DNA of 64,000 nucleotides, taken from contig JASEIU010000001.1 of assembly GCA_030017715.1 (NCBI GenBank), positions 396,677 through 460,676 on the forward strand, read 5' to 3'. A model generated the notes under the pieces. It saw only the letters and a program-made list of their open reading frames with translations. It did no database searches and was not told the origin of the DNA. This document shows, piece after piece, positions 52,351 through 56,300 of this stretch. The stretch's first letter is position 1, and each line of letters starts with the position of its first letter. The stretch is from Candidatus Saccharicenans sp. GTDB taxonomy: Bacteria > Acidobacteriota > Aminicenantia > Aminicenantales > Saccharicenantaceae. The translations under genes and the position numbers were made by a program.

Positions 52351-52428
52351 TTTTTCCAAGGAATTGCCGCCGGCTCTGTCTAATATTGATGAACCATGAG
52401 AAAGAAATTTGAGACAGGAGGAAATAAA

Positions 52429-52956
52429 ATGAAGAACAAAACCTTGCCGGTTCTCATGATGATCATTTTTGTCGGTATGCTGCTGGCGGCCAGCTTAAAT
52501 GCCCAGCCGGCATTCGGGCGGAGGATGATGGGACAGGGCGCAGGCGCCGGCCATCAGCTCTTGAAGGATGCCCTGCAGTTGACTCCCGAACAGGAAAAGA
52601 AACTGGAAGAGTTCCGTAAGGCCCGCCTGGAGGAAGCCAGAGCCCACCAGGAAAAGATGGCCAAACTACGCCAGGAGTTCAGGAAGCTTGTGGAGGATCC
52701 CGGGGCCAATGAGAAGAAGGTCAACAGCCTGATAGACGAAATGTCGAAGCTGAGGGCCGAGCGGATGAAAGCTATGTTCAAGAACAGAAAAGAATGGGAA
52801 AAAATCCTTACTCCCGAACAGCTTAAAAAACTGGAAGAATACAGAAAAGACTTCAGGCTGCGCCGGGATCTGTTCATGGGACCAGGGGGCCGGATGGGCG
52901 TCAGAGGAAAGATGCTTATGCGCCACTGGAGGCCAATGGGCTTCTTCTGGTGGTAA
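52429..52956 (+). CDS. Spy/CpxP-like periplasmic protein (heavy-metal-sensor-like)
   Basis: ATG 52429 chosen for ACAGGAGGAAATAAA; 11 earlier codons lack a site. 175 residues: signal peptide ~1-25, then the LTPEQEKKLEEFRKARLEEA and ILTPEQLKKLEEYRKDFRLR pair (LTxxQ motifs) that define Spy/CpxP chaperones, with a long Lys/Glu/Met-rich helix between and a Met/Arg/Gly-rich C-terminus (MGPGGRMGVRGKMLMRHW). Such proteins bind unfolded periplasmic proteins or metals under envelope stress. Ends at a strong terminator. Confidence 0.85.
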   Translation: MKNKTLPVLMMIIFVGMLLAASLNAQPAFGRRMMGQGAGAGHQLLKDALQLTPEQEKKLEEFRKARLEEARAHQEKMAKLRQEFRKLVEDPGANEKKVNSLIDEMSKLRAERMKAMFKNRKEWEKILTPEQLKKLEEYRKDFRLRRDLFMGPGGRMGVRGKMLMRHWRPMGFFWW

Positions 52957-52989: not shown

Positions 52990-53025
52990 GGGGGCGGCCG
53001 CGTCCGGCGCCCCCTTTTTTATTTT
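52990..53025 (+). terminator. Rho-independent terminator
   Basis: GGGGGCG (52990-52996), loop, CGCCCCC (53008-53014), TTTTTTATTTTATT. It ends the sugar ABC/Spy region. Confidence 0.9.
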
Positions 53026-53299: not shown

Positions 53300-53337
53300 T
53301 GTCCTGTTTTCAGGACAGGATTGGATTCGACAGGACA
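53300..53337 (+). promoter_or_regulatory. Palindromic enhancer-binding site (UAS) with a third half-site
   Basis: TGTCCTG (53300-53306), TTTT, CAGGACA (53311-53317) is a perfect 7-bp dyad; a further CAGGACA is at 53331-53337. Centred ~85 bases before the expected start, a typical position for a sigma-54 activator. Confidence 0.7.
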
Positions 53338-53366
53338 TCCGGCTTCGGCTCTCTGCCTGTCAATAC

Positions 53367-53382
53367 TGGCACAATTATTGCA
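53367..53382 (+). promoter_or_regulatory. Sigma-54 (-24/-12) promoter
   Basis: TGGCACAATTATTGCA matches TGGCAC-N5-TTGC exactly, with correct spacing between GG and GC. The predicted start is about 15 bases before ATG 53409. Confidence 0.85.
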
Positions 53383-53408
53383 CTTTAGTGGGGTGAAAGG
53401 AGAAGAAG

Positions 53409-55439
53409 ATGAGAAAAGAAGCTTTGATTGGCCTGGCGGCCACGGTCCTTTTCTTCTTCTCAGGCGCCATTGCGGCCGATGAATCTTATTATTCCGGCTC
53501 CTTTGCCCGGTTGAGTTATGTGCAGGGTGATGTTCGGGTTGACAGGGGGCAGGAGCTGGGCATCGAGTCCGGCGAAGTCAATTTCGTCCTGACCGCCGGA
53601 GATAAATTGTTGACCGGAGACGGGCTGGCCGAGGTCGGCTTCGGTCATAACAACTACCTGCGAATCGGCAGCTATTCTCTGGCGGAGATGGTCAGACTGC
53701 CGGAGTCGGGTTATGACGACCTTTCTCTTCACCTCCACCGGGGCAGATTTTATTTCAGGGTCAGCTCGCTGCCCGGAGAAAAAAGCTTCGGCCTCCATAC
53801 TCCGGATGCTTCTTTTTACCTTCTGGAAGAAGGTCTGTACCGATTCGAAATTGATGAAGAGGGGCGGACTGAAGCGGCGGTTGTGGAAGGTCGGCTGGAA
53901 GCCGCCGGGCAGGAAGAGTCCGTTGTTCTGAGCCGGGGAGATTCGGTAACGGCAGAGAATGGTTACCTGATGGATTCCGGAGGGTATCGTCTTTCCGACG
54001 ACAATTTTGAGCGCTGGAATGAGAGGCGGGAGGAGCAGCTGGCCAGGGCCGTCTATGTCGCCGATTCCTATCTCCCGGAAGAGATAAGAGAGTACGAACC
54101 CGAGCTGGCCGCCCACGGCCGCTGGGTTTACGAACGTCCCTACGGTTATGTCTGGGTTCCCGTGGTTACTTACGTTGACTGGCGGCCCTATCTTTACGGG
54201 CGCTGGGTCTGGTATCCGCGCCTTGGCTGGACCTGGATTTCAGCCGAACCCTGGGGCTGGACGGTCTATCATTATGGCCGCTGGCACTGGCGTCTGGGCC
54301 TGGGCTGGTACTGGATCCCGACGGTGCACTGGGGCCCGGCCTGGGTGCACTGGTACTGGGATTCGGACATCGTCGCCTGGTGTCCGCTTGGCTACTGGAA
54401 CCGGCCGGTGGTAATAATCAATAATCATTTCTATGACCGGTATGGCGACCCGTTCGTTCCGGTTCATTCCCGGTCCCTGGTGATGGTCAGGAAAAATCAG
54501 CTGCAGGCTCCTCATCATTCCAGGACGCTGCTCAGGCCTGAAGCTCTCAGAGGAGTGGACAGGATCAGGCTCCAGGCCCGTCAGCCCGAGATTAAGCCTG
54601 TGGTCGGCAACACCCTGAAAGCGCCCGGTTTGAGAACCGGGTCTTCTATGGTCAGAGAGCATAACCCGAACGGCCTGAAACGTCTTTCCGCTTCGCAGCT
54701 CAGGTCGACAGAGAAGGCCGGCTCGGGCGGTCGGCTGTCTGGGGGCCTTTCTTCCGGCCAGCTGAGAAGGGAAGGCCAGGCAGACGTCCGGCAACCTGAG
54801 AAGGCCGGGTCCATAAGAACTTATGCTCCTTCTTCTCGAAATAGTTCCGTCGGTTCCAGGTCGGGCTCCGACCGGGCCCCAACGAGAATTTCCGGTGATC
54901 ATCAGCGCCAGACTGCCAGCCGCGGTGACGACTCCCGGCTGAGAATTGATGACAGCCACAGGCGACCGGTGTCCGAACAGAATCATTTCCGACAAGTAAA
55001 ACCCGACCAGGATTCACGGTTGCGGACGGGAATCGAGCCCGGGCAGTCAGCGGTCAGGGAAAACCGACCGCCGGCGCGCCCGTCGGCTGAACGGCGTGGT
55101 CACATAAAGGAAAGACCGGCTTCGTCTTACCAGTCCCGTTCTCCACGTGTTCCTCCCAGGCCGGTTGATACCGAGCGGAACTCCGGGCAATCCTCTTCCT
55201 CGTCCAGGAATTCCGGTCTGAGGGAAAGCAAGCAGAGCCAGGAAGGGAAATTATCCTATAATTTGCCTTCTTTATCGCCTCCCGATGGATCATCTTCTGT
55301 CAGAAAAAGCAACCACCAACAGGAACGGCCGGCTGCCGTTTCTCCCGACGCCGGAGCTCGCTCCCGGTCTTCCGGAACTCAATCCTCTTCCGGTTCCAGC
55401 TCCCGCGCCGGTCATTCCGTCAGGAAAAAGAACGGCTGA
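53409..55439 (+). CDS. FecR-domain and DUF6600 exported protein with long disordered tail
   Basis: 676 residues, ATG after AAAGGAGAAGAAG. Signal peptide ~1-22. Residues ~30-190 form a FecR-type beta domain (RLSYVQGDVRVDRGQEL, LLTGDGLAEVGFGHNNYLRI, EGLYRFEIDEEGRTEAAVVE). Residues ~230-345 are a Trp/Tyr-rich DUF6600 repeat region (GRWVYERPYGYVWVPVV, GRWVWYPRLGWTWISAEPWG, HYGRWHWRLGLGWYWIP). The last ~290 residues are Ser/Arg/Pro/Gln-rich and look unfolded. No enzymatic site. The extracellular aromatic repeats suggest binding to glycans or surface structures, but this is inference. Controlled by a textbook sigma-54 promoter and palindromic enhancer site. Confidence 0.85.
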   Translation: MRKEALIGLAATVLFFFSGAIAADESYYSGSFARLSYVQGDVRVDRGQELGIESGEVNFVLTAGDKLLTGDGLAEVGFGHNNYLRIGSYSLAEMVRLPESGYDDLSLHLHRGRFYFRVSSLPGEKSFGLHTPDASFYLLEEGLYRFEIDEEGRTEAAVVEGRLEAAGQEESVVLSRGDSVTAENGYLMDSGGYRLSDDNFERWNERREEQLARAVYVADSYLPEEIREYEPELAAHGRWVYERPYGYVWVPVVTYVDWRPYLYGRWVWYPRLGWTWISAEPWGWTVYHYGRWHWRLGLGWYWIPTVHWGPAWVHWYWDSDIVAWCPLGYWNRPVVIINNHFYDRYGDPFVPVHSRSLVMVRKNQLQAPHHSRTLLRPEALRGVDRIRLQARQPEIKPVVGNTLKAPGLRTGSSMVREHNPNGLKRLSASQLRSTEKAGSGGRLSGGLSSGQLRREGQADVRQPEKAGSIRTYAPSSRNSSVGSRSGSDRAPTRISGDHQRQTASRGDDSRLRIDDSHRRPVSEQNHFRQVKPDQDSRLRTGIEPGQSAVRENRPPARPSAERRGHIKERPASSYQSRSPRVPPRPVDTERNSGQSSSSSRNSGLRESKQSQEGKLSYNLPSLSPPDGSSSVRKSNHQQERPAAVSPDAGARSRSSGTQSSSGSSSRAGHSVRKKNG

Positions 55440-55577
55440 GCTCAAGCCGGAATTTTTTTTCTTTACTTTTATCAAAATCAATGGTATAAAGATTCCTTCC
55501 TGTTGCCGCGAATGCGGACGGGCGGAAGAATACCAATAGGCTTTTAAGTCTTAGATAAAGAAATGGAGGTATTGGAG

Positions 55578-56300
55578 ATGGTTTTCCGGAAAAATGGACT
55601 TCTGTCATTCGTTATTATTGCCAGCGTAATAATTCTGGTTTCGGCAGTGGCTTTCGGTCAGCAAACCCAGTCTCAGCCCCAGACCAAAGATTACGAGGGC
55701 ACGGTAAAAGCGGCTGTGGCGCATTATCTTTATATCCCCCAGGCCCAGGGACTTGACATCTTTGTCGCCGGCAGCGTCCAGGGCGGCCTGGAAAATCTGG
55801 TCGGCAAAGAGGTCAGGGTTAAGGCCAGCCCCATAGCCGATAAACCCAACCTGATTCTGGCCGAGTCGATCGAAATCAAAGAAGGCGCCGCCTACACCAG
55901 TGTTTACACCCGGTCGGCTGAACCTGATTTTGCCGGTTATCTGAGCCCTCACGACCGCGAAGGTTATGCCGCCCTGAATATTACCAATATAAATAAGCCC
56001 GAAGAGTGGGAAGGCAAGGAAAAGGTGAAGGTTTACGGGAAGCTCCAGACATCGAAGGTTAAAGAGGGCGGCCAGGAGAAAGAAGTGACTCACATCGTCC
56101 TGACCGATAAAAAAGGCAAAGAAATCGGGCGGGTCATTGTCAACGGTCTTTCGGATTATGCCAATTTCTATCTGAAGAAGCTCAGACTGTTCGATAAGTT
56201 CTGGTTTTACCTTGAGGTCACCGACCAGGTGGACAAAAGAGTCAGAGCCAGAACCAGAGAACTTTTCTCCGGCAACGTGGTTTTCGTCGGGCTGTTTTAA
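55578..56300 (+). CDS. Exported protein of unknown function
   Basis: ATG 55578 is chosen because GGAGG lies 8 bases upstream; ATG 55563 has no site. 240 residues with signal peptide ~1-25 (LLSFVIIASVIILVSAVAFG). The mature part is beta-rich: DYEGTVKAAVAHYLYIPQAQ, LENLVGKEVRVKASPI, KVKVYGKLQTSKVKEG and ITHIVLTDKKGKEI-like strands suggest one or two OB/SH3-type barrels. No motif I can name. It is 138 bases after the FecR/DUF6600 gene and ends at a terminator, so it may share its sigma-54 transcript. Confidence 0.7.
   Translation: MVFRKNGLLSFVIIASVIILVSAVAFGQQTQSQPQTKDYEGTVKAAVAHYLYIPQAQGLDIFVAGSVQGGLENLVGKEVRVKASPIADKPNLILAESIEIKEGAAYTSVYTRSAEPDFAGYLSPHDREGYAALNITNINKPEEWEGKEKVKVYGKLQTSKVKEGGQEKEVTHIVLTDKKGKEIGRVIVNGLSDYANFYLKKLRLFDKFWFYLEVTDQVDKRVRARTRELFSGNVVFVGLF

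Follow-up and report, generated by a model that had tools for sequence, protein, structure and literature searches.

A conserved sigma-54 promoter and palindromic activator site point to a DUF6600-centred envelope regulon in Acidobacteriota

Introduction

What switches on the gene for an exported FecR/DUF6600 protein in Candidatus Saccharicenans, and does the element in front of it recur at other genes? The gene lies in a 64-kb stretch of a 2.9-Mb genome (G000:C10:396677-460676), analysed here as a whole and referred to as the window. A first-pass annotation of this DNA had placed a consensus sigma-54 promoter and a palindromic enhancer site upstream of the gene. We examined this control region, its conservation in relatives, the genes that carry similar elements and the candidates for the activator.

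Results

A sigma-54 promoter and a predicted activator site precede the target gene

Re-reading the sequence returned the element at the coordinates first given for it and the same exact match to the -24/-12 consensus. The promoter, TGGCACAATTATTGCA, occupies positions 53367-53382 (+ strand), is kept in orthologues and is the single match in the window to TGGCAYn5TTGCW with 0 or 1 mismatch. Upstream of it lies the dyad TGTCCTGTTTTCAGGACA (53300-53317, no strand assigned), a predicted palindromic activator (enhancer) site composed of TGTCCTG (53300-53306), TTTT (53307-53310) and CAGGACA (53311-53317). A third half-site, CAGGACA (53331-53337, + strand), is found 20 bases 3' of the second arm, and its GGACA is retained at that position in the closest relatives only. 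Setting the C of TTGC (C53381) as -12, we predict a transcription start at ~53393 (+ strand), which would put the dyad centre at ~-85; the distance of "~85 bases upstream of the start" claimed in the first-pass annotation thus holds for the predicted transcription start but not for the ATG at 53409, which is 109 bases 3' of the first base of the dyad. A likely ribosome-binding site, AAGGAG, was picked out by eye at 53397-53402 (+ strand).

The target gene (53409-55439, + strand) encodes a 676-aa protein with a FecR-fold domain, a DUF6600 domain and a long Ser/Arg/Pro-rich tail, and the sequence of its N terminus resembles a signal peptide, which suggests that the protein is exported. Its earlier description as a FecR/DUF6600 protein was upheld on both counts. 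DUF6600 (PF20245; residues 232-329, positions 54102-54395, + strand) scored 96.8 bits against a curated Pfam cut-off of 27. A FecR-like beta domain (about residues 31-195, positions 53499-53993, + strand) emerged from profile search, modelling and structure search: Foldseek, run on residues 1-364 as modelled by AlphaFold2 (mean pLDDT 78.5), returned the FecR-type domains 4m0h and 6ovk with E of about 1e-5, and a profile search agreed in matching 4m0h. Pfam's own FecR model did not match the protein. The N-terminal domain therefore has the fold of the FecR/PupR periplasmic signalling domain, but the protein differs from FecR/PupR in carrying a predicted N-terminal signal peptide in place of the anti-sigma region, as well as the additional DUF6600 domain and a long basic tail. 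Inspection of the neighbouring genes revealed neither an ECF sigma factor nor a TonB receptor, a setting unlike that of an anti-sigma FecR; we propose a role in the envelope.

The target gene is flanked by a conserved upstream gene for a Spy/CpxP-type (LTXXQ) protein identified with Pfam (52396-52956, + strand), for which a scan of the window showed no sigma-54 box of its own, and by a conserved downstream gene for a 245-aa protein of unassigned kind, without a Pfam match (55563-56300, + strand). A phosphoglucose isomerase-like protein, named by eye, is also encoded nearby. Both the Spy/CpxP-type and the 245-aa neighbour are kept across much of the class, and the retained pairing of the Spy/CpxP-type gene with the DUF6600 gene hints at an envelope-stress context. 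PADLOC gave no defence match.

The promoter and dyad are conserved in orthologues with helical spacing

The closest named relatives of the target protein belong to Candidatus Saccharicenans (class Aminicenantes), and all 34 family genomes matched it, although in a few of them the match was to a paralogue only. Where upstream DNA was available, the orthologues had a -24/-12 box shortly 5' of the start. Together with the promoter, a dyad fitting the class consensus TGTCCT-N6-AGGACA at 9 or more of 12 positions was found in 39/39 distinct orthologue upstreams scored, a set picked for having a -24/-12 box, so that the dyad count is independent and the promoter count is not. The fit was at least 11/12 in 31 of them, whereas shuffled upstreams reached a score of 11 in 0.03% of cases. 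Six loci with a visible promoter or dyad fell outside this scoring.

The distance between dyad and promoter varied by lineage (35-36, 47-49, 54-62, 66-72 and 77) in steps of about 10.5 bp, or about one helical turn, as expected if an activator occupies a single face of the DNA. Across 31 lineage-reduced values, the 10.5-bp periodicity had P of about 5e-5 against a uniform null, and 0.0015 when the period was scanned from 9 to 12; these values serve as guides, given the simple null, the hand-drawn lineage list and lineages that are not fully independent.

Two other readings were weighed against this pattern. The first concerns the palindrome alone. It can be drawn as a stem of 7 bp closed by a TTTT loop, as would suit an RNA hairpin or a terminator of the upstream gene that has nothing to do with the promoter. 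However, the palindrome is not followed by a T-run, and the Spy-like gene already has a G+C-rich inverted repeat with a T-run directly 3' of it (about 52990-53025, read from the sequence). Moreover, the arms change without kept pairing (as in CGTCAT-N6-AGGACA) while the promoter distances shift in helical steps, which favours a DNA-bound protein over an RNA hairpin. We consider the hairpin or terminator reading extremely improbable and rejected it. Alternatively, the promoter could depend on sigma-54 while a repressor, a co-regulator or some other DNA-binding protein reads the dyad and the true activator is bound elsewhere; many families of regulators bind inverted repeats, and the protein proposed to bind this one is a candidate. 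Against this, the position at about -85, the helical-step spacing to the -24 box and the presence of sigma-54 boxes in all 39 upstreams are traits of activator sites, and we regard a different reader as improbable.

The same unit recurs at other DUF6600 genes

A single copy of the exact dyad at this spacing exists in the 2.9-Mb genome, and TGTCCTGn0-20CAGGACA matches at just one other place, where the spacer is 12 bases long. The genome-wide search proposed in the first-pass annotation thus yielded no second exact dyad at home, but a DUF6600 regulon came to light in relatives. Within the genome itself, a DUF6600 lipoprotein paralogue (C10:1100764-1101915) is preceded by TGTCCCCAAAAAGGGACT and CGGCATATTTCTTGC, arranged as at the target gene; this promoter is one base off TGGCAY and the dyad scores 9/12, and the DUF6600 lipoprotein genes of relatives have stricter versions. 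Two further DUF6600 paralogues of this genome do not have the unit. A beta-barrel protein behind a promoter at C13:234085 is homologous to the dyad-bearing barrels of family f7, and its own weak dyad (9/12) is suitably spaced, making it a possible third member of the regulon.

Scanning 297 Acidobacteriota genomes with the pattern TGTCC-N8-GGACA-N25..55-TGGCAY-N5-TTGC produced 24 matches in 21 genomes versus 0 for a reversed-pattern control, and many of these matches precede DUF6600 genes, including those in two genomes outside the class (G055 and G237). A relaxed scan of 90 genomes of the class gave 47 matches in 36 genomes, again with 0 for the control. Among the downstream ORFs read from the class scan, 28/44 were flagged as DUF6600 (a further one, L362, whose frame was misread, is not in the 28), and most of the remaining ORFs encode exported proteins, namely members of a beta-barrel family, VWA-like proteins, lipoproteins and an Oar-like receptor. 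Starting instead from 30 DUF6600 loci in 24 genomes, the promoter was present in 24/30 and the dyad as well in 21/30, some loci being without one or the other; since the genomes were partly chosen for their phylum-scan matches, these are not unbiased rates. All three fractions are approximate, as a crude motif rule was used to assign ORFs, starts and DUF6600 flags.

The occurrence of the dyad in 39/39 orthologue upstreams, the 0.03% reached by shuffled sequences and the 24 matches versus 0 in the control indicate that the promoter and dyad at 53300-53382 are real and above chance. Conserved throughout Aminicenantes, a class of uncultured bacteria, the unit recurs at DUF6600 genes in other families, in other orders and in two other Acidobacteriota classes among the relatives sampled. 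We conclude that these genes very probably form an ancient DUF6600-centred envelope regulon that is apparently unreported.

In three genomes of one genus (G327, G328 and G359; loci L377, L379 and L381-L384), several promoters carry tandem dyads, GTCCTAAAAATAGGACA and GTGTCCTAAAAATGTGACAC, apparently an enlarged version of the regulon.

Sigma-54 promoters elsewhere in the genome

It had been suggested that few exported structural proteins of this type are known to be under sigma-54 control, and our results do not support this as a surprise. Where a TGGCAYn5TTGC site of the genome is followed by a recognisable gene, that gene mostly encodes an exported protein, among them a pilin, Oar-like outer-membrane proteins and a beta-barrel, and sigma-54 has been argued in a published survey (Francke and others) to be a general controller of the bacterial exterior (PMC3162934). 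With this theme established and also visible in the genome itself, sigma-54 control of an exported target is not surprising. The targets in that survey are exported, as here; its text contains no match for "Acidobacteri".

Four Oar-like carboxypeptidase-regulatory outer-membrane proteins (L015, L016, L030 and L032) lie behind sigma-54 promoters, and much of the exterior of this bacterium therefore seems to be under sigma-54. At L132 (G000:C10:580228-581689), TTGCAATATTGCAAATTGCAA and a sigma-54 promoter lie between the gene of a response-regulator activator and a glutamate-dehydrogenase-like gene. TGTAAAATAAATTTACA-like repeats precede three sigma-54 promoters at L133 (G000:C10:509946-513171) and L017, two of which adjoin one activator gene. 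L137 (G000:C15:1-14000) includes a radical-SAM and peptidase-ABC-transporter region resembling a modified-peptide cluster; the two activator-like proteins that flank it have no recognisable DNA-binding helix.

An orphan NtrC-type regulator is the probable activator

The genome encodes one rpoN, the lack of which had been named beforehand as grounds for discarding the promoter; its presence, along with the deep conservation, supports both promoter and palindromic enhancer. Ten strong sigma-54 activator-domain matches were found in the genome. None lies in the window, in line with the earlier statement that the activator is encoded outside it. Flanks of up to 5 kb at 36 loci, searched with a positive control included, contained no activator beside the target gene.

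We consider it likely that the activator is an orphan NtrC-type response regulator, here L003-type (G000:C10:1089213-1090670). This regulator is universal in the genomes searched and has no adjacent sigma-54 promoter. In this genome and eleven other family members, 9-13 kb separate it from the DUF6600 lipoprotein gene, and in G259 and G081 the FecR-DUF6600 gene is 4 kb away; five order-level genomes have a DUF6600 gene 11-33 kb from it, and G055 has one at 19 kb. Such linkage is absent in several other genomes, among them G034, where no DUF6600 gene occurs within about 18 kb of the regulator, and where present it may be plain synteny.

Under the same sigma-54 regulon, the activator might instead be the L005-type response regulator (G000:C10:354642-356021), which adjoins its possible kinase, a protein of 949 aa that contains a PDZ domain. 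It too is near-universal in the genomes examined and has no adjacent sigma-54 promoter of its own; its clade and that of the L003-type are both phylum-wide, so co-occurrence does not separate them. In several family members and in G034 it is about 30 kb from the FecR-DUF6600 gene. However, it is 95 kb from the target gene in this genome, and it is unlinked to DUF6600 genes in G259 and G055, where the L003-type regulator is 4 and 19 kb away. We therefore judge the L005-type regulator an unlikely activator.

Other candidates fared less well. PilR was rejected on its motif, the pilA sites here being GACAA-n-TTGTC. The L007-type regulator was set aside as well: TGTAAAA...TTTACA-like repeats lie beside its own gene, and it has no clear counterpart in G259. 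The gene of the L006-type regulator is adjoined by a TTGCAATATTGCAA repeat. At L004 (G000:C11:29960-33457) and its relatives (L153-L164 and L173), a PilR-type regulator sits beside a histidine kinase and pilus genes, and GACAA-n-TTGTC lies upstream of a sigma-54 promoter, which in this genome is that of pilA; an IHF-like AATCAATAAGTTA is often found between the two.

Discussion

The region upstream of the target gene is very probably a sigma-54-dependent control region with an NtrC-type activator at the dyad, and part of a DUF6600-centred regulon. We propose that the activator would bind TGTCCT-N6-AGGACA some 85 bp ahead of the transcription start, assemble an AAA+ ring and, by way of a short loop in the DNA, reach sigma-54 RNA polymerase poised at the -24/-12 box; ATP-driven promoter opening would then switch on the exported FecR-fold/DUF6600 protein. 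The same element would control the DUF6600 lipoprotein of this genome and DUF6600 genes across Aminicenantes and the two other Acidobacteriota classes sampled. In this scheme we infer the binding, the activation, the identity of the activator, its phosphorylation and the signal. The mechanism is ordinary, and the novelty lies in the DUF6600 regulon.

The closest parallel in design that we compared is GlrR (QseF/YfhA), which activates glmY and rpoE in Enterobacteriaceae from a TGTC-N10-GACA site (PMC4987338, PMC8745638). The dyad here, TGTC-CTGTTTTCAG-GACA, fits that shape, and both systems combine such a site before a sigma-54 promoter with an envelope-related output, but the GlrR target is a small RNA whereas the target here is a DUF6600 protein. 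TGT...ACA half-sites are common among activators (PMC4641369), the DNA-binding domains of the candidates are not especially like that of GlrR, and we rejected GlrR orthology for the two candidates scanned, the L003- and L005-type regulators, which scored 374 and 368 bits versus the NCBIfam GlrR cut-off of 763. The dyad system may thus work like the GlrR system, while the orthologue search does not support membership in the GlrR regulon. PilR and pilA offer another sigma-54 activator of an exported protein with TGTC/GACA half-sites, but the pilA sites of these genomes have the opposite arm order to the dyad.

More tentatively, the orphan NtrC-type regulator reading TGTCCT-N6-AGGACA might form a dedicated, ancient sigma-54 circuit for a DUF6600-based envelope layer, with beta-barrels and lipoproteins as partners, throughout Acidobacteriota. 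Such a circuit would be a hitherto unrecognised envelope response with a role like that of GlrR-type systems. DUF6600 is a family without an assigned function, and the term had no match in any of the literature searched. The conserved handle of TGTCCT-N6-AGGACA and a -24/-12 box links DUF6600 proteins with a sigma-54 activator and with a few envelope partners, and makes both the function of DUF6600 and its activator directly testable in cultivable Acidobacteriota.
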